Positions 26,472 to 36,712 of a DNA stretch of 37,452 bases are shown in pieces. Below the pieces are notes generated by a model that was not told the DNA's origin, made no database searches, and saw only the letters and a program-made list of their open reading frames with translations. The stretch is from a virus: positions 1 to 37,452 of IMG/VR virus record IMGVR_UViG_3300005293_000002. One strand, written 5' to 3'. Both the position numbers and the translations under genes were made by a program. Position 1 is the stretch's first letter, and each line of letters opens with the position of its first letter.

Positions 26472-26999
26472 GTGCATATCGTCGTCGTCAAACAGACCGA
26501 TGAAACGCTGGCCGAACCTGCCGCCGGCATGGTGCGCCGCTTCCTGTTCGAATTCTTCGAAGGCGCCACCGAGAAAGACACGAAGGCCTGGCGCCGGTTC
26601 TGGCGCGCGATGAACGAAGCCGGCAGCGGCGAATATTTCAGCTTCAAGCTGGAGCGCCAGCGCCAGAACTGGCGGCACCGCAAACACATGGGCATGATCA
26701 GCGCGATTTTTAAAGCCCAGGAACGCATCGAAGATTTCGAGCAGTTCAGGCTGTGGCTGAAAGTAGGCAGCGGCTTTGTGGACTGGTGCGCAGGCCCGAA
26801 AGGTGGCGTTTTCCCGGTGCCGAAATCGATCAGCTTCGACAAGTGCAGCGAGGACGAATTTATCGCCTTCCATGATGGCGCGGTGGCGTTCCTGCGCACC
26901 GAACACGCGGCCAAGTACCTGTTCCCGAATTCGCCCATCTTCCTGGCCGAATCAGGAATTGAAGAAATTTTGTCACGCTACGAAAGGCAGGACCAATGA
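26472..26999 (+). CDS. DUF1367-like protein
   Basis: A 175-residue protein with a GTG start right after the HTH gene. The pattern WRRFWRAMNEAGS, then FEQFRLWLKVGSGFVD, VFPVPKSISFDKCSEDEF, and FLRTEHAAKYLFP matches the DUF1367 family often found near phage Holliday-junction and nin-region genes. No biochemical role is established. It overlaps the methyltransferase start by ATGA. Confidence 0.65.
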   Translation: MHIVVVKQTDETLAEPAAGMVRRFLFEFFEGATEKDTKAWRRFWRAMNEAGSGEYFSFKLERQRQNWRHRKHMGMISAIFKAQERIEDFEQFRLWLKVGSGFVDWCAGPKGGVFPVPKSISFDKCSEDEFIAFHDGAVAFLRTEHAAKYLFPNSPIFLAESGIEEILSRYERQDQ

Positions 27000-28744
27000 A
27001 AGACATTACATTCGGGTCGGTATGCAGCGGCATCGAAGCCGCCAGCGTTGCGTGGCATCGCTTCGGCTGGCGCGCTTCCTGGCTGGCCGAGGTTTCCACC
27101 TGGCCGGCGCGTGCGCTACACCACCACTATGGCAGCGGGCGCCCGCACTTTATGCTGGATCCTAATGAAGAAGGCCTGAGCGACGAAGAACGCAATGATC
27201 GCCTGATCGCAATCAAGACGGTTGCAAAGCTGCCGCTGGTGCCGATGAATAGTAAGACGACGCCGCCGAACTTGGGCGATATGACTCGCATTGAAGCGCT
27301 GGTGCGTTCCGGGGCTGTTGCTGCGCCTGATATTTTGTGTGGCGGAACGCCCTGCCAGGCTTTTTCCCTTGCTGGTCTGCGCGCTTCGATGGAAGACGCG
27401 CGCGGCCAATTAACCCTTTCTTTCGTAAGGCTAGCCGATGCAATCGATACAGCAAGACATGTTCGCGGGGAACCACCTGCAATTATCGTGTGGGAAAACG
27501 TCTTCGGCGTCATGTCCACAAAGGACAATGCGTTCGGGGCTTTCGTGGGAGCACTTGCCGGCGAAGATAGCCCACTCATCCCGCCAGGGGCCGGATGGAC
27601 GAACACTGGTTGTGTGTTTGGACCCCGCCGTACAGTCGCTTGGCGGGTCTACGATGCCCAATATTTCGGAGTGGCCCAACGACGCCGCCGTGTGTTCGTT
27701 GTCGCAAGTGCTAGAGAGGGAATTGATCCATCCGAAATACTTTTTGAGTTCGACGGCGTGCGCCGGGATACTGCGCCGAGCCGTCAAACGGGGCAAGACG
27801 TTACCGGAACAATTAGGGCAAGCGCTGCGCGCCGTGGCGGAGTGCAAGACGAATGCGGGCTTGGACTCCAGCCAGTAACCGGCACGCTGGATGCCAGCTA
27901 TGGCAGGCTTCAGGGATGCGCAGGGCAGGACGCAAACCACGGTCACAGCCACCTGGTTGTTGCCTCCGTAGGCAACAACCAGGCAGGGCCGATAGAAGTT
28001 GCCACGGCCTGCCGCGCGCACGCCAGCCCGCACCTAGATTTTGAATCCGAAACCTTCCTGGTGCAGTCGGTAGCATTGCGTGGGCGTGATGGCGGCGCGA
28101 CTGCTGAACTTGGCGATGATTTAGCTGGCGCGCAGCGCGCCAGCAGCGGCGGGAGTGACAAGGCGCATGTGCTTGCGCCTATCGCCTTCGACAGCCGTCA
28201 AGATTGCATCAGCAGCACCGAAGTGTTCGGCGCGCTGGGTTCGTCCAGCCCGCAGGCGCAGGCGGTTGCGTTTTCCTGCAAGGATTCCGGCGCTGACGCA
28301 TCTGTTGAACTGGCGCCCACTATGCGCGCAATGGGGCATCAAGGAAGCCATGCAAACGGTGGTGGTCAAATTGCTGTATGCGTCACTGGAGAAATCACGC
28401 ACACGCTGAAAGCCGAAGGCTTCGACGCCAGCGAGGACGGCACCGGGCGCGGTCAGCCGATCATTGCGCATCGCATGGCTGTTCGCCGCCTCACGCCACG
28501 CGAGTGTGAACGGCTACAGGGATTCCCCGACGATTACACGCTGATCCCGATGGGTATCGTGTCACAAGCGCGTGCGGAAAAGATACTGGCCGCTGGCGAC
28601 CATGCCCGCCAGGATGACGCAGGCAACTGGTGGAAGATGGCAGCAGACGGCCCACGCTATAAGGCGCTGGGCAATAGCTGGGCAGTGCCGAACGTGGTTT
28701 GGATTGGACGCCGAATTGACCAGGCATTGCGGGCGGCGGCATGA
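26996..28744 (+). CDS. DNA cytosine-C5 methyltransferase
   Basis: A 582-residue m5C methyltransferase. Motif I is FGSVCSGIEA; motif IV is GGTPCQAFSLAG with catalytic Cys120; motif VI is WENVFGV (about 166-172); motif VIII is AQRRRRVFVV (about 227-236); motif IX includes RRLTPRECERLQGFPDDYT and motif X is ALGNSWAVPNV. It transfers a methyl group from S-adenosylmethionine to C5 of cytosine in a specific DNA sequence. A long, Gly/Ala/Ser-rich target-recognition region lies between VIII and IX. No matching restriction gene is present, so protection of phage DNA from host restriction is likely. A perfect 14-bp hairpin (27952-27983) lies within it. Overlaps both neighbours by ATGA. Confidence 0.93.
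   Translation: MKDITFGSVCSGIEAASVAWHRFGWRASWLAEVSTWPARALHHHYGSGRPHFMLDPNEEGLSDEERNDRLIAIKTVAKLPLVPMNSKTTPPNLGDMTRIEALVRSGAVAAPDILCGGTPCQAFSLAGLRASMEDARGQLTLSFVRLADAIDTARHVRGEPPAIIVWENVFGVMSTKDNAFGAFVGALAGEDSPLIPPGAGWTNTGCVFGPRRTVAWRVYDAQYFGVAQRRRRVFVVASAREGIDPSEILFEFDGVRRDTAPSRQTGQDVTGTIRASAARRGGVQDECGLGLQPVTGTLDASYGRLQGCAGQDANHGHSHLVVASVGNNQAGPIEVATACRAHASPHLDFESETFLVQSVALRGRDGGATAELGDDLAGAQRASSGGSDKAHVLAPIAFDSRQDCISSTEVFGALGSSSPQAQAVAFSCKDSGADASVELAPTMRAMGHQGSHANGGGQIAVCVTGEITHTLKAEGFDASEDGTGRGQPIIAHRMAVRRLTPRECERLQGFPDDYTLIPMGIVSQARAEKILAAGDHARQDDAGNWWKMAADGPRYKALGNSWAVPNVVWIGRRIDQALRAAA
27952..27983 (+). repeat. Perfect 14-bp inverted repeat inside methyltransferase gene
   Basis: CCTGGTTGTTGCCT (27952-27965) and AGGCAACAACCAGG (27970-27983) are exact reverse complements with a 4-base loop. 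It encodes about residues 319-330 in the target-recognition region, which would not predict such a symmetric DNA sequence. Confidence 0.9.
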
Positions 28745-29148
28745 AGCGCACACCCATGAAACGAACACCGTTTAAGGTAAAGGTGCCGGCCGAAAAATGT
28801 AAGGCGCCAGCAAATAAACGTAAAGCGATGAAGTCGACCAGGCCGCGCATGACGCCGATTCGCAAGGCCGCGCGCGGGAAGGACTGCACCATGATGATCG
28901 TCGGCGTCTGCAACCGCGATCCGGCCACGGTGGTGCTGTGCCACTCCAACAGCCTGGCCGATGGCAAGGGCATGGGCCTGAAGGCGCCCGATACGGAAGC
29001 GTGTTTCGGCTGCAGCGCCTGCCATGACGTGCTCGACGGCCGGCGCCCGCTGCCGGCCTGGATGACCCGCCAGGTGCTGCTCGAGGTCTTCGACCGCGCG
29101 CGCACCATCACCCACGAGATTCTAAAAACAGAGGGGCTTTTACCATGA
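28741..29148 (+). CDS. YbcO-type nuclease (DUF1364)
   Basis: A 135-residue protein. After a basic Lys/Arg/Pro-rich N-terminus (about 45 residues), it has KAARGKDCTMMIVGVCNRDP, then VVLCHSN, GKGMGLKAPD and CFGCSACHDVLDGR. This His/Cys pattern is that of the YbcO (DUF1364, Pfam PF07102) family, an HNH-like metal-dependent nuclease common in lambdoid nin regions. It likely cuts or resolves DNA. It overlaps both the methyltransferase and the RusA gene by ATGA. Confidence 0.85.
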   Translation: MKRTPMKRTPFKVKVPAEKCKAPANKRKAMKSTRPRMTPIRKAARGKDCTMMIVGVCNRDPATVVLCHSNSLADGKGMGLKAPDTEACFGCSACHDVLDGRRPLPAWMTRQVLLEVFDRARTITHEILKTEGLLP

Positions 29149-29573
29149 TCCAGTTCACCATTCCCGGCCAGCCGGTGGCCAAGGCCCGCGCGCGCGTCAC
29201 GATGGTGGGCGGCTTCGCCCGGGCCTACACGCCGAAGAAAACGGCCGACTACGAAACCCTGGTCGCCGGCATCGCCCGCAACGCTATGGCCGGCCGCGCG
29301 CCATCGGCGGCGCCCATCGAAGTGATGCTGGAACTGCGCATGGAAATTCCGGTTTCCTGGTCGAAGGCCAAGCGCCTGGCCGCCAGCGTCGGCACCGTGC
29401 GCGCCACGAAGAAGCCCGACGCCGACAACGTGCTGAAGGGCGTCAAGGATGCGTGCAACGGCATCGTGTGGGTGGATGACAGCCAGGTGGTGGTGATCAC
29501 CGTTCGCAAGCTGTACCACGCCGATCCGTGCGTCGTCATCGCCATTCGTGAAGTTGAGGGGGAATCCGCTTAA
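29145..29573 (+). CDS. rusA: RusA-family Holliday-junction resolvase
   Basis: A 142-residue protein. The opening FTIPGQPVAKARARV and the central KPDADNVLKGVKDACNGIVWVDDSQV give the conserved Asp residues (in PDADN and VDDSQ) that bind metal in RusA. RusA is a dimeric nuclease that resolves four-way DNA junctions, fitting recombination-dependent replication with the RecT system. It ends just before the 454-bp gene-free region. Confidence 0.9.
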   Translation: MIQFTIPGQPVAKARARVTMVGGFARAYTPKKTADYETLVAGIARNAMAGRAPSAAPIEVMLELRMEIPVSWSKAKRLAASVGTVRATKKPDADNVLKGVKDACNGIVWVDDSQVVVITVRKLYHADPCVVIAIREVEGESA

Positions 29574-29597
29574 TTTTGCGATTACGCAATGATTCGC

Positions 29598-29627
29598 TTG
29601 ACGGAAATCAATTGCGTGTGGGAATAT
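29598..29627 (+). promoter_or_regulatory. Promoter for candidate small RNA
   Basis: TTGACG (29598-29603), an 18-base spacer ending in TGG, and GAATAT (29622-29627), resembling an extended -10 element. It lies just after the rusA stop, with a predicted start near 29634. The -10 box is weak, so this rests mostly on the context of the structured RNA and terminator downstream. Confidence 0.45.
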
Positions 29628-29633
29628 TCGTTC

Positions 29634-29750
29634 GTGCTTGGCGGCATGGAAAATATGAAAAGCGTTTCACATGGATTCCCGGAGGCCGAAAGGTCTTGCC
29701 GCCAAGCCCTACGAAAGTAGGGTGGGATTCCAGGTGAAACGCTTTTTTTT
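29634..29750 (+). ncRNA. Candidate structured small RNA with three-way junction
   Basis: About 117 bases between a promoter-like sequence and a run of eight Ts. A 13-bp stem (29658-29670 with 29734-29746) encloses a second helix (29673-29680 with 29724-29731, one T-T mismatch) and two hairpins. Hairpin A is 29683-29696, with a 5-bp stem and GAAA loop. Hairpin B is 29707-29722, with CCCTAC pairing GTAGGG around a GAAA loop. Paired GNRA tetraloops on a junction recall riboswitches, ribozymes and other docking RNAs. No sequence match to a known class was found. No ORF with ribosome site is seen. Confidence 0.6.
29658..29750 (+). terminator. Intrinsic terminator formed by outer stem of the small RNA
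   Basis: The outer stem AAAAGCGTTTCAC with GTGAAACGCTTTT is followed by, and overlaps, eight Ts (29743-29750). It should end transcription of both the small RNA and the upstream rusA operon, unless antitermination acts. The complex loop is unusual for a simple terminator. Confidence 0.75.
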
Positions 29751-30027
29751 CGTCTGTACGTCGCCAAGCACCGTACACCGCACGTTAGCAAGGGCCATAT
29801 TTCGGGCCGCGCGGTAGAAAACGGGACTGGTAGCGCAGCAGGCAGGCGCAGGGTGCAATTCCCATAATCCAGGGGCTGGCGTTGATCCTGTAGCCCAGGG
29901 GCGTACCGTGAAAACCGGTAGCTGACAGGAATCCGATTTATCGGGATGGCGTCCAACACTTCTTTTCCCCTACAGGGGTTAGGGGGGCGTTGGATGGAAT
30001 ATAAAATAATTCTAAGAGGACAGATCC
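29751..30027 (+). other. Gene-free stretch with further inverted repeats
   Basis: No protein-coding gene was recognised. Inverted repeats include GTACG with CGTAC (29756-29775), GGGCC with GGGCC (near 29790-29808), GATCCTGT with ACAGGAATC (near 29884-29934, one bulge) enclosing TACCG with CGGTA, and GTCCAAC with GTTGGAT (29951-29957 with 29989-29995) enclosing CCCC TACA GGGG (29967-29978). An AT-rich TATAAAAT lies at 30000-30007, just before the next gene's ribosome site. It could be a second RNA, an untranslated leader, or an origin region. Confidence 0.5.
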
Positions 30028-30306
30028 ATGAAGAAAGAGATTCAAGGGCCATGGGAAAACCGGGGAACGCTGGTTTTCTTCGCCAACAATGCAGGCGGGT
30101 TTGATTTGCGCGGCTGCCCGCATCCTGTAGACAAGGCCCGGCTGGCCGCTGCTGCACCGCTGATGCTGCTGGCGCTGGAAGCGATTCTGCCATTTTGCGC
30201 CAAGACTTCGGCCAGTGAGGGCGGCGCCGCCAAGTACAGCGCCAGCGTGACCGCTGCTGACATGGTGCGCGAAGCGATCGCCCAGGCCACCGGGGTCGCA
30301 TCGTGA
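30028..30306 (+). CDS. Small hypothetical protein before replication genes
   Basis: A 92-residue protein with AGAGGACAG upstream of its ATG. It contains WENRGTLVFFANNAGGF, then a helix ARLAAAAPLMLLALEAILPF. The Ala-rich middle is a pattern seen in many small phage proteins near replication modules. It overlaps the next gene by GTGA. Function unknown. Confidence 0.6.
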   Translation: MKKEIQGPWENRGTLVFFANNAGGFDLRGCPHPVDKARLAAAAPLMLLALEAILPFCAKTSASEGGAAKYSASVTAADMVREAIAQATGVAS

Positions 30307-30815
30307 ACGCCTACACCGCCCTGCGCGCCGCGATGGACGCCACCAAGATGGACCAGGTGATCGTGATGCGCACCGACCTGGCCGAACTGCTGGCCGAAGT
30401 GGACAAGCTGCGCGCCGCCGCACCGGTGAAGAAGACCAGGGCGAAGAAGGCCGCGCCGCCGGCTGCTGCCGTGCCGCTGCCCGACTGGCTGCCGCTGGAA
30501 GCCTGGCACGCCTTCCTGGACATGCGCAAGCAGATCAAGAAGCCGGCCACCGACCGCGCCCAGGCGCTGCTGATCAAGAAGCTGGCCGCCTTCTATGCCA
30601 ACGACCTGGACCCGGGCGTGATCCTGAATCAGTCGATCATCAACAACTGGCAAGACCTGTACGCGCCGAAGGAAGCCAGCACGGCGCACGTTAGCCGCTT
30701 CGGTGATGGCCGCGTGCCGGTGGCGGACCAGAACCGCGCGAACAATACCGCCGCGCTGGCGCTGCTGGACCAGGTGAACTTCGACATGGCGAGGACGATC
30801 GATGAATGCCAATGA
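30303..30815 (+). CDS. Possible replication initiator-related protein
   Basis: A 170-residue protein with a GTG start. An N-terminal helical part and a basic linker (KKTRAKKAAPP) lead to DWLPLEAWHAFLDMRKQIKKPATDRAQALLIKKLAAFY, followed by DPGVILNQSIINNWQDLYAPK. That last pattern is common at the C-terminal end of phage replication-initiation (O-like) proteins. There is no recognisable winged-helix DNA-binding domain at the N-terminus, so it may be a stand-alone version. It is followed by a helicase-loader-like gene, the O-P order of lambdoid phages. Moderate confidence. Confidence 0.55.
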   Translation: MNAYTALRAAMDATKMDQVIVMRTDLAELLAEVDKLRAAAPVKKTRAKKAAPPAAAVPLPDWLPLEAWHAFLDMRKQIKKPATDRAQALLIKKLAAFYANDLDPGVILNQSIINNWQDLYAPKEASTAHVSRFGDGRVPVADQNRANNTAALALLDQVNFDMARTIDECQ

Positions 30816-32238: not shown

Positions 32239-32874
32239 ATGATCGAGAACGACAACAGCACCGAAAAAATGATCCAGGCTGCAGGCCTGACCGCGCCGCG
32301 CCTCTCGCCCGCTATTTTGCAGGCCAACATCATGCACACCGAAATCGTGAAGCATGTTACGCACGGCGGCCAGGTGCTGCGCTGGGCAGTGATCACGACG
32401 TTAAGCGGGTTTGGCGTAGTGGGGCGCCCTTCGGTGTCTGTCTCGCCTGAGAACGACAACGAAGAAATCGGCATCAAGGTGGCGACCGAGAATTCGACGG
32501 CTGAAATGTGGCCGCTGATGGGCTACGAACTGAAACAGCGCCTGTTCAATGAGTCGCAAGGATTGCAGGCGCTGGCCGGCGATGCGCTGCTGGAGCGGTT
32601 CAACAGTCTGCATCGCCAGTACATCGCCGCCGGCGTAGAAATCCACCATCGCGGCGGTGCTGAACTGAGCGGGCGCCCACCGTATCAGCAGCGCGTGGTC
32701 GATGAGCGCGACGAATTGGCCGACAAGGTGGAAAAGCTGTCCGCCTTCCTTGGTGGGGACACCTACAAGCGGCTGGCCGACGAAGAACAGACGCGCCTGG
32801 CCGACCAGTTGGCCGCCATGCGGCAATACGTGGCCGTCCTGAACGCGCGCATTGAGGCGTTCGAACCGCAGTAA
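32239..32874 (+). CDS. Gp49-like protein fused to crAss001_48-related domain
   Basis: A 211-residue two-part protein. The first part (about residues 15-105) has IMHTEIVKHVTHGGQVLRWAVITTLSGFGVVGRPSVSVSPENDNEEIG, then TAEMWPLMGYELKQRLF, matching the Phage_gp49_66 family. The second part (about 150-211) is QRVVDERDELADKVEKLSAFLGG with a long charged helix, as in small phage proteins related to crAss001_48. Both are phage accessory domains without known function. It lies between two spacer hairpins. Confidence 0.6.
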   Translation: MIENDNSTEKMIQAAGLTAPRLSPAILQANIMHTEIVKHVTHGGQVLRWAVITTLSGFGVVGRPSVSVSPENDNEEIGIKVATENSTAEMWPLMGYELKQRLFNESQGLQALAGDALLERFNSLHRQYIAAGVEIHHRGGAELSGRPPYQQRVVDERDELADKVEKLSAFLGGDTYKRLADEEQTRLADQLAAMRQYVAVLNARIEAFEPQ

Positions 32875-32895
32875 AACGCCAGATTGGCACGGCCA

Positions 32896-32919
32896 GCCGC
32901 CCCGCCGACCTGGGGCGGC
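32896..32919 (+). other. Spacer hairpin before 32935 gene
   Basis: GCCGCCCC and GGGGCGGC form an 8-bp stem with an 8-base loop, followed by ACATCG and AAAGAGAAA before ATG. It resembles the hairpin at 32200, but with a longer stem. Confidence 0.75.
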
Positions 32920-32934
32920 ACATCGAAAGAGAAA

Positions 32935-33477
32935 ATGAACTTTACCCACATCGCCAACCCTGTAGCGGTCACCGCGCGCGCCATCCTGGGCGTGTCCACC
33001 ATCACCGAAGGCGCCATGCTGGCGCTGGATGACACCACCAATTATTTCGCCAACAACGCCATGCTGGCCCGCTACACGCCGGTGGCCGGTGATTACCTGG
33101 TCACCCAGGATGACGGCTACCAGTACGTGAACCCGAAAGACGTTTTCGAACGCAAGTACCATCCGGTAGACGATTTGCCCGAAGCGCTGCCGGCGCCCAC
33201 CCATGGCGTGGCGATGTGTTTTTCCGGCGCCCTGCTGCACTTGAAAGGCGGCGCCAAGATCGCGCGCGCTGGCTGGAATGGCAAAGGCATGTTCGTGTAT
33301 ATGGTGCCGGCCAACAGCTACCCGGCGCAGACTGGAGTGGCAAAAGATCATTTCGGTGATGGCGCCATGGTGCCGTACAAGGCCTACATGGCACTGAAAG
33401 GCACGGACGACACCGTAAGCACCTGGGCGCCAAGCGCAGGCGATACGCTGGCCGAAGACTGGGAAATCGTCCTGTAA
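32935..33477 (+). CDS. Two-domain protein with C-terminal Tad2 (DUF2829) anti-Thoeris domain
   Basis: A 180-residue protein. Residues of about 93-180 match the Tad2/DUF2829 family: ARAGWNGKGMFVYMVPANSY (about 110-129), then VPYKAYMALKG and a C-terminal WAPSAGDTLAEDWEIVL. Characterised Tad2 proteins sequester the cyclic ADP-ribose signal of Thoeris defence. The N-terminal domain (about 1-78) has LGVSTITEGAMLALDDTTNYF and AGDYLVTQDDGYQYVNPKDVFERKYHP, a pattern found in other phage proteins of unknown function. Anti-Thoeris activity is inferred from the family, and no ligand-binding pocket can be proven here. Confidence 0.75.
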   Translation: MNFTHIANPVAVTARAILGVSTITEGAMLALDDTTNYFANNAMLARYTPVAGDYLVTQDDGYQYVNPKDVFERKYHPVDDLPEALPAPTHGVAMCFSGALLHLKGGAKIARAGWNGKGMFVYMVPANSYPAQTGVAKDHFGDGAMVPYKAYMALKGTDDTVSTWAPSAGDTLAEDWEIVL

Positions 33478-34720: not shown

Positions 34721-34992
34721 TCGTGAGTGAAGACCAAACTAAAGTAGCCCCAAATAGGGGCCGCGTCGGTGGACGCGCGAAAGGTACGCCGAACAAGGCC
34801 ACCAAGGAACTGAAACAGATGATCCTGGAAGCGCTGGGCAAGGCTGGCGGCGTGAAGTACCTGACCGCCCAGGCCACGGCGAATCCGAAAGCGTTCATGA
34901 CTCTGCTGGGCCGTGTGCTGCCGCTCCAGGTCACTGGCGAGAATGGCGGCCCTGTCCAGATCACGTTCAGCAACACGGACGCCGACCTGTGA
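34717..34992 (+). CDS. Terminase small subunit
   Basis: A 91-residue protein. RVGGRAKGTPNKATKELKQMIL (about residues 16-37) and YLTAQATANPKAFMTLLGRVLPLQV (about 48-72) match short small-terminase proteins found next to the large subunit in P22-like phages. It would bind the packaging start site and guide the large subunit. ATG 34717 overlaps the leader ORF stop; a GTG start two codons later is possible. Its stop overlaps the large-subunit GTG. Confidence 0.8.
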   Translation: MIVSEDQTKVAPNRGRVGGRAKGTPNKATKELKQMILEALGKAGGVKYLTAQATANPKAFMTLLGRVLPLQVTGENGGPVQITFSNTDADL

Positions 34993-36359
34993 GCGGTTTT
35001 ACCCTGACCGAGCGCCAAAGCCTGGCGCAGACCATCCTGGCCGGCATCGCCACATGGCTGATGCTGTTCGGTGGTGGCCGGTCGGGGAAAACGTTCCTGA
35101 TCATTCGGAACATCATCACGCGTTCGCTCAAGGCGCCGGGATCGCGGCACCTGGTCACGCGGTCGCGCTTCAACCACTTGAAGGCTTCGATCATGATGGA
35201 CACCTTCCCCAAGGTCATGAGCGTGTGCTTTCCGCAACTGGTCAAGGGCAAGGATTGGGATATCAACATGTCTGATGGCTACGCCTGGCTGCCCGGCGGT
35301 TCGCAAGTGTGGTTCCTGGGCCTGGACGACAAAGAGCGGATGGAAAAGATCCTGGGCCTGGAGTTCGCCACCATCTACATCAATGAGGCCAGCCAAGTGG
35401 CCTGGGCTGGTGTTCAGATCCTCCTGACGCGTCTTGCGCAGCGGTGCACGCAGATCATCAACGGGGTGGAATCGCCGCTGAAACTGCGCTTCCTGTTCGA
35501 CTGCAACCCGCCCAGCAAAATGCATTGGGCGTTCAAGGTCTTCAAGCAGAAGCTGGACCCGGAAACCAAGGAACCGTTGCGCAACCCAGGCAATTACCAG
35601 TGTTTCCAGATGAACCCGGCGGACAATGCCGCCAATCTGTCGCCCGAATACATGGAAGCGCTGGACGGTCTTTCCGAGCGCATGAAGCGCCGTTTCAAGG
35701 ATGGCGAGTTCTCCGACGCCACGCCAAACGCCCTGTTTGACGAAGCCGACATGGACAAATGGCGCGTGACCGATGGCGTGGTGCCTGACCTGGTGCGCGT
35801 GGTGGTGTCGGTCGATCCATCGGGCGCCGGCGACGACGGCGAGAACACCGACAACGACGAAATCGGCATCACGGTGGGCGGCCTGGGCGTGGACGGCAAC
35901 GCCTACCTGCTGGAAGACCTGACCGTGAAGGGCGGGCCATCGACGTGGGGCGCGGTCGCCGTGGCTGCCTACATGCGCCACAAGGCCGATGCGATCGTGG
36001 CCGAAACCAACTTCGGCGGCGGCATGGTCAAGTTCGTGGTGCAGGCCGCCGCAGTGAAGGCCGGCTGCAAGATCAATTTCAAGATGGTCACCGCCAGCAG
36101 GGGCAAGGTGCAGCGCGCCGAACCGTTCAGCGTTCTTTACACGAATGGCAAGGTGCGCCACGTCGGCATCTTCGCCAAGTTGGAAGACGAAATGTGCGCT
36201 TTCTCCAGTGTCGGCTACACCGGCCCACGATCACCGAACAGGGCAGACGCGCACATTTGGGCGCTGGCTGAATTGTTCCCGGCGCTGGTCAAGGCGCCGA
36301 AGAAAGAAGTTGAAGAAGACGAAACCAATGGATATGGGGGTAACGGATGGATGAGTTAA
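34989..36359 (+). CDS. Terminase large subunit
   Basis: A 456-residue protein with a GTG start. The ATPase has Walker A GGGRSGKT (residues 28-35), Walker B ATIYINEAS with Glu133 (about 127-135), and a coupling motif near FDCNPP (about 170-175). The nuclease has Asp276 (VVVSVDPSGAGDDG), Glu339 (IVAETNFGGG) and Asp420 (RADAHIWA). It powers DNA packaging and cuts the concatemer. The order small terminase, large terminase, portal is that of P22. The next start lies inside its 3' end. Confidence 0.95.
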   Translation: MSGFTLTERQSLAQTILAGIATWLMLFGGGRSGKTFLIIRNIITRSLKAPGSRHLVTRSRFNHLKASIMMDTFPKVMSVCFPQLVKGKDWDINMSDGYAWLPGGSQVWFLGLDDKERMEKILGLEFATIYINEASQVAWAGVQILLTRLAQRCTQIINGVESPLKLRFLFDCNPPSKMHWAFKVFKQKLDPETKEPLRNPGNYQCFQMNPADNAANLSPEYMEALDGLSERMKRRFKDGEFSDATPNALFDEADMDKWRVTDGVVPDLVRVVVSVDPSGAGDDGENTDNDEIGITVGGLGVDGNAYLLEDLTVKGGPSTWGAVAVAAYMRHKADAIVAETNFGGGMVKFVVQAAAVKAGCKINFKMVTASRGKVQRAEPFSVLYTNGKVRHVGIFAKLEDEMCAFSSVGYTGPRSPNRADAHIWALAELFPALVKAPKKEVEEDETNGYGGNGWMS

Positions 36360-36712
36360 AGCCGGGAACAATCACGCTGGGGCCGGCCAGCTTGCACCTG
36401 TCATACAGCGCGCTGGTGCCGCCGAACATGCGCGGTAATGCCCTGGAGATAACAGAGTTGTTGACAGCAGTCAACGAAAGGGGGCAGAATCACGCCAATT
36501 CCTTGATGCAAGAAGTTTGCGAACAAGCCGACCAGGCCGGCAAACTTCTGTTGCTCATGCCCGAGACATACGGCCAGGATGGCGGATTGACCACCGAGCA
36601 GCTATCGGACTGGTATCAGCGCCGCCACGGCTTTGTCGTTCTCCAGCTTTCCCCAAAAACAATTCTGGTGCGCATGCCTGCAAGGGCAGCGGCTAAATGG
36701 GCTGGACAATGA
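36347..36712 (+). CDS. GNAT-like small protein between terminase and portal
   Basis: A 121-residue protein that overlaps the terminase by 13 bases and the portal start by ATGA. The C-terminal half (KLLLLMPETYGQDGGLTTEQLSDWYQRRHGFVVLQ, then TILVRMPARA) resembles the last strand-helix-strand part of GNAT acetyltransferases, with the Y-x-x-x-G-F pattern. The N-terminal half lacks a recognisable acetyl-CoA loop (R/Q-x-x-G-x-G/A). It may be a divergent or degenerate GNAT fold. Confidence 0.5.
   Translation: MDELKPGTITLGPASLHLSYSALVPPNMRGNALEITELLTAVNERGQNHANSLMQEVCEQADQAGKLLLLMPETYGQDGGLTTEQLSDWYQRRHGFVVLQLSPKTILVRMPARAAAKWAGQ

Follow-up and report, generated by a model that had tools for sequence, protein, structure and literature searches.

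We describe a family of folded RNAs for which we found no published account in the literature searched (itself covered in part) and which, as judged from sequence comparison, so far occurs only in uncultured phages. Its conserved core, by the same comparison, is a 5' end that is exchanged between two partners, one of which (a') lies in the loop of a predicted terminator and the other (a'') past that terminator. We hypothesize, with a probability that we put at roughly one half, that the element acts in cis, as the leader RNA of an early operon in a phage, and gates transcription by strand exchange around the terminator. The stretch of DNA analysed here, which we call the window, is an entire IMG/VR record of 37,452 bases whose gene content (portal, head, tail, NinB, methyltransferase, HNH, RusA and large terminase) is that of a tailed phage. 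An earlier note on this DNA had proposed that positions 29598-29750 encode a small RNA with its own promoter and terminator. The structured RNA, the promoter and the terminator all stand; a free-standing RNA is probably not what these positions encode, as they form the first third of a leader of about 390 nt.

The gene-free stretch of the window runs from the end of rusA (29145-29573), its upstream border, to the start of the next gene at 30028. The first gene downstream (30028-30306) encodes a 92-aa protein of unknown function (phrog_1273) and the second (30303-30815) a 170-aa protein with a replication-initiation O-like domain (phrog_678, E 5.6e-21); these two genes and all features of the element given below are on the plus strand. 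We rejected a coding explanation for the stretch: a 239-aa minus-strand open reading frame that crosses it is interrupted in three relatives (L196, L083 and L047), and the alignment contains single-base gaps. A tRNA or tmRNA origin of tRNA-like words at 29820-29875 was likewise dropped, ARAGORN having found neither there. Elsewhere in the window we noted a protein with a Tad2-like (Thoeris anti-defence 2) domain at its C-terminal (32884-33477; Pfam PF11195, E 1.2e-21), a fusion of Phage_gp49_66 and crAss001_48-related domains in a single protein (32239-32874), a 582-aa protein (26996-28744) matched over its full length by phage DNA methyltransferases and in its N-terminal half by a DNA primase profile, and a large terminase subunit (34989-36359) with 48% identity to its closest annotated relatives, from Synechococcus phages Ssp-JY42 and Yong-M4-211.

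The extended -10-like promoter of the earlier note is present: a -35 hexamer, TTGACG (29598-29603), is followed after an 18-nt spacer by a sigma70-type extended -10, TGG-GAATAT (29619-29627). From the position of this promoter the transcript is predicted to start at about 29634, which leaves a leader of 24 nt up to the terminator stem, in agreement with the figure of about 24 bases given previously. A sigma70-like promoter was found in 27 of 27 elements, its -10 ending 6-9 nt 5' of the start of the compared element and adjoining arm a (see below), and the median promoter score of the elements is reached by 0.7% of random sites. This constant position next to a makes it most likely that the RNA begins with a, and transcription would proceed from this promoter upstream of a. 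Generic promoter and terminator scans made no call at the window element, because its -10 is off consensus and its terminator loop is longer than the 8-nt limit of the scan. The -35 lies within a dyad, TTGACGGAAATCAA (29598-29611), and a dyad of the form TTGA-N6-TCAA overlaps the -35 in 8 of the 27 element promoters, where it is likely a (putative) operator; the other copy of this dyad in the window (36461-36474) falls within an open reading frame and is probably there by chance. A further perfect dyad, TTGCGATTACGCAA, is located just 5' of the promoter (29577-29590).

The two arms of the terminator stem, T5 (29658-29680) and T3 (29724-29746), were recovered by folding, by repeat search and by covariation. 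Over 23 positions they are 91% complementary (21 bp), and they lead into a run of eight T (29743-29750), with at least four T present at this place in all 27 elements. A GC-rich hairpin followed by a U-run, the sequence criterion for an intrinsic (Rho-independent) terminator, was found in the window and in all 27 elements. By that criterion the outer stem also serves as the terminator, as had been suggested, and polymerase is predicted to stop at the U-run, at about 29750. The structure is as elaborate as the earlier note held: the segment 29620-29752 has a minimum free energy of -60 kcal/mol, compared with -38.2 +/- 3.8 kcal/mol for shuffled sequences (z -5.7; 0 of 200 as good). Two hairpins, Hb (29683-29696) and Hc (29707-29722), are indeed capped by GAAA in the window. 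Hc is confined to the window-like subgroup, Hb carries a UUCG loop in L196, the closest relative, and a GNRA cap is not a family-wide feature of either hairpin; the two-GNRA three-way junction is therefore a local feature, and not the defining one that it had been taken for.

Two pairings of the RNA's first bases, together with a structured domain at 29770-30027, had been overlooked. Arm a (GTGCTTGGCGGCA, 29634-29646), which comprises the first transcribed bases, is complementary both to arm a' (TGCCGCCAAGC, 29697-29707), within the terminator loop, and to arm a'' (CGCCAAGCAC, 29762-29771), beyond the T-run. In the window, the repeat search gave a perfect helix of 11 bp for a:a' (29636-29646 with 29697-29707) and one of 10 bp, also perfect, for a:a'' (29634-29643 with 29762-29771). 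Since eight bases of a are common to both helices, these are mutually exclusive; a:a' and the terminator stem have no bases in common, and the two could coexist as a pseudoknot. All three arms are clear in nearly all 27 elements. The geometry is constant across members, with an a-to-a' loop of 49-58 nt and a linker of 7-15 nt between a and T5; the stem is approximately 18-29 bp as counted. Displacement does not extend to every member: in a few of them (L067, L070) the pairing of a'' is restricted to the 5' part of a and overlaps that of a' little if at all. L078 has a poor a''. The 7-nt linker of L067, next to a 20-bp stem, would make simultaneous formation of a:a' and the stem hard. Folding of successive prefixes predicts a:a' in most members from the point at which a' is present; the terminator state is thermodynamically favoured at the U-run. 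Arm a also has several one-mismatch sites in the window, none of them evidently a target.

Relatives were gathered from the neighbours of rusA and then by pattern searches, which brought the elements with this architecture to 27, from 26 IMG/VR phage contigs. When 1.7 Mb was scanned algorithmically for a terminator combined with a, a' and a'', the window ranked first and all scores of at least 32 belonged to the family. L196 and L066 constitute the window-like subgroup, the remaining members being much diverged in sequence. Our main alignment (A1, made with MAFFT) holds 13 relatives and leaves out the window, which is too diverged. In A1, where the structure was derived from the same sequences, the sequences lack independence through their relatedness and the a' of L050 is slightly out of register, the terminator plus a:a' is 99.5% paired, with 14 pairs changed on both sides and 58 compensatory cells (shuffled controls, mean 18.2; slid controls, at most 7), and the terminator plus a:a'' is 98.5% paired, with 15 pairs and 55 compensatory cells. 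Taken alone, the a:a' helix (9 bp) is 100% paired in the 13 relatives, with 4 compensatory pairs, and the a:a'' helix (12 bp) is 97.4% paired in them. Columns 11, 13 and 14 of a show compensatory changes with a' and a'' both. For the window subgroup (alignment A3, in which pairs were counted with a'' only), a G-to-A change in a that distinguishes L066 from the window is matched in a'' and, by eye, in a'. The arms of two near-identical pairs of sequences, L072/L076 and L071/L074, also differ by matched changes. As an alignment-free check, we calculated duplex energies for cognate and swapped arms, which were -20.9 versus -14.7 kcal/mol for a/a' and -22.1 versus -14.4 kcal/mol for a/a''. Stems broken without compensation in relatives, the observation by which the earlier note would have given up its proposal, were not what we found: relatives change their stems with compensation. 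On these comparative grounds we regard as established an RNA with promoter, arms, terminator stem, both alternative helices and a 3' domain.

The 3' domain of the window (29770-30027), defined by alignment and consensus fold, belongs to a subfamily that we term S1 and extends to the next gene. It begins with a common hairpin, ACCGYACMCC..., which is recognizable in all members but the S3 pair and L195. S1, the window type, and S2 are represented by 7 sequences each and have their own consensus folds, with 15 pairs showing compensatory change in S1 and 18 compensatory pairs in S2. The S1 model (R2) matches some other subfamilies weakly, in the correct place and on the correct strand, and there is a faint indication of a loop-to-downstream pairing in S1. 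We also observed that at least six families of structured 3' domain, of about 250 nt, stand behind the one common 5' module (L050, L046, L058, L072, L067 and others). The S1 domain contains a T-loop-like GGUGCAAUUCC hairpin; a reading of S1 as a cobalamin riboswitch was dropped, as this hairpin alone is alike and no model matched.

That the element matches no known class, as the earlier note had said, was confirmed by covariance-model searches. Across the window no Rfam family was found at E<=1, and at E<=5 the element stretch gave three matches only, all far below threshold; with Rfam 15, the window and the other stretches yielded nothing near threshold but a tRNA elsewhere in L207. GOLLD, ROOL and the other Rfam 15 families gave no covariance-model match, c4 antisense RNA (RF01695) had no cmscan match in the window or the stretch, and no model of the cobalamin riboswitch (RF00174 clan) matched the stretch at E<=5. 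A blastn search of five members against 50,697 annotated phage records (INPHARED) matched nothing beyond rusA, and one of one member against plasmids gave no match. Three pattern matches came up among 84,980 species genomes, and on inspection these were due to chance and lacked the architecture; the R1 search, whose sensitivity in such genomes is uncertified, found none in that set or among 398 genomes sampled from one phylum. Two probes were discarded: the loop motif TTTTCTGGGTTARATCCC recovers some members and matches mostly coding sequence of other phages, and the matches of one relative-finding pattern are mostly chance.

Comparison of gene neighbourhoods shows that the element is placed before replication or recombination genes. 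An O-like replication initiator is found downstream of it in the window and downstream of the plus-strand element of G001, a replication initiator in L067, a helicase and a primase in G012, and a RecT-like annealing protein downstream of the minus-strand element of G001. The R1 search of these records located two divergent elements a few kb apart in G001, G009 and G012, opposite-strand matches at one place being mirror artefacts of inverted repeats; G010 is a possible fourth case and is ambiguous, and a single element was found in the window, G003, G006 and others. The second element of G012 (L208:8450-8600) has a and a', no clear match for a'' and a different 3' domain. Genes of the nin type lie ahead of the element in the window (NinB, HNH, RusA) and in G001 (NinB, NinG), and in G001 an HTH regulator is the first gene of the rightward operon, between both elements. 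Where a genome has two elements, their a sequences are not the same, and for this reason cis action is favoured.

In the gating mechanism that we propose, the sigma70-type promoter would start the transcript at arm a, which would capture a' as it emerges, in a loop of about 50 nt that encloses the 5' arm of the terminator. The a:a' helix would hinder closing of the 21-bp terminator hairpin; were the hairpin to close, the transcript would end at about 29750. Upon read-through, a'' would emerge and capture a, its target being partly shared with a', and a:a'' would close the start of the RNA onto a site beyond the terminator, the 3' domain of about 250 nt then being transcribed ahead of the first gene. 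We infer from this arrangement that a:a' antagonizes termination; it might instead assist it. The signal that chooses between the states would act on the nascent RNA, and may be folding kinetics alone, a host factor, a phage protein or a ligand. We also entertain, as a tentative and rather unlikely proposal, a new class of RNA-only elongation control, in which the a/a'/a'' exchange would admit polymerase and the 3' domain would then modify it in the manner of the put RNAs discussed below.

Several other explanations have to be weighed against gating by strand exchange. A protein-gated attenuator, in which a host factor or a Q- or N-like protein of the phage would bind the leader and, as at lambda pR'/tR', enable polymerase to pass the terminator, would account for a promoter, short leader and terminator that precede an operon and follow nin-type genes. 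We hold it to be doubtful, given that no Q- or N-like protein was recognized, that lambda boxA (GCTCTTTA) is not enriched over shuffles and that the lambda leader works without a conserved three-strand pairing. The terminated RNA of about 115 nt (29634-29750) could also be a trans-acting antisense immunity RNA, whose free a would bring later transcripts to an early stop by pairing with their nascent a' or a''. Such an RNA would be produced whenever the terminator works, its single arm with two complementary sites in its own leader recalls P4 seqB with seqA and seqC, and the TTGA-N6-TCAA dyad in 8 of 27 promoters is in keeping with it. Within the short RNA, however, a is already paired by a' in cis; the arms differ between the elements of one genome, the Rfam c4 model is unmatched, and among the window proteins scanned (a partial coverage) there is neither a repressor nor an integrase, so that we consider this reading improbable.

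An ornate RNA of about 390 nt that acts as a molecule, as has been proposed for GOLLD and ROOL, would make the U-run stem mainly architecture and a:a'' the closure of the RNA. The 3' domain equals the 5' part in structure and conservation, P1 links the 5' end to the domain and stem length is constant, all as such an RNA would have it; yet the GC-rich stem with at least four T in every element resembles an intrinsic terminator, the element is always directly ahead of a gene and GOLLD and ROOL are unmatched in Rfam, which leaves this reading quite improbable. The location of the element between rusA and the next genes would suit an ordinary boundary, where the upstream operon's terminator meets the promoter and untranslated leader of the next operon and the extra structure is incidental. 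This we regard as very improbable, as it is contradicted by the covariation of a:a' and a:a'' across widely diverged phages and by a promoter that precedes the terminator and does not follow it. Least credible of all is a metabolite riboswitch with the 3' domain as its aptamer, suggested by the likeness of the T-loop-like hairpin of S1 to the cobalamin riboswitch core and by a conserved hairpin loop with its possible, faintly indicated downstream pairing: models of cobalamin and other riboswitches are unmatched even at E<=5, several different 3' domains stand behind one 5' module, and the aptamer would follow the terminator rather than precede it.

Among known systems, lambda nutL/nutR resemble the element in being sited in divergent early operons, and lambda pR'-tR' (Q) in its order of promoter, short leader and terminator behind nin-type genes; the element differs from both in showing no boxA enrichment, no conserved boxB-like loop and no recognized N or Q. 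The boxA near a boxB hairpin that characterizes nut was not found, the hairpin loops not being conserved, and we know of no three-strand pairing in lambda nut or pR'-tR'. The immunity RNAs P4 CI and P1 c4 control termination through RNA pairing and, like the element, have one arm that complements two other sites of their own leader. Unlike them, the element has its complementary arm first, at +1, its arms differ within a genome and the c4 model does not match it. Attenuators and riboswitch expression platforms similarly set mutually exclusive helices beside an intrinsic terminator, whereas here the alternative helix shares no bases with the terminator stem and one partner lies past the terminator. 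GOLLD and ROOL are, as is the element, large, highly structured and phage-linked, but they lack any sequence or model match to it, and the element is always a leader directly ahead of genes.

RNA-only antitermination is, to our knowledge, known from essentially one phage group, that of HK022, and by analogy HK022 put is the closest to the element in working position. In HK022, putL and putR are two cis RNAs of the divergent early operons, in which RNA alone suppresses termination; put is about 70 nt long, with two tandem stem-loops, putL lies right behind its promoter, and the RNA binds the zinc-binding domain of the polymerase beta' subunit and suppresses downstream terminators (PMC9378689). 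Like putL and putR, the element has a complex fold and is a probable cis RNA of early-operon leaders; it occurs as divergent pairs in G001, G009 and G012 and singly in other records. Put has neither a preceding terminator of its own nor strand exchange, whereas the element has one large branched stem and long-range pairings; because the put shape, in size and in its two stem-loops, is not seen here, we do not class the element as put. Action on polymerase has been shown for put and is hypothetical for the element. We see in the element an RNA family of uncultivated phages that is separate from put, has diverged widely, covaries strongly and occupies an equivalent place, with a built-in terminator, two conserved competing partners for its first bases and interchangeable 3' domains. 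It probably decides whether the DNA-copying or recombination genes are read, it opens to test how RNA folding can gate an early operon in a phage, and it offers a natural strand-displacement switch.
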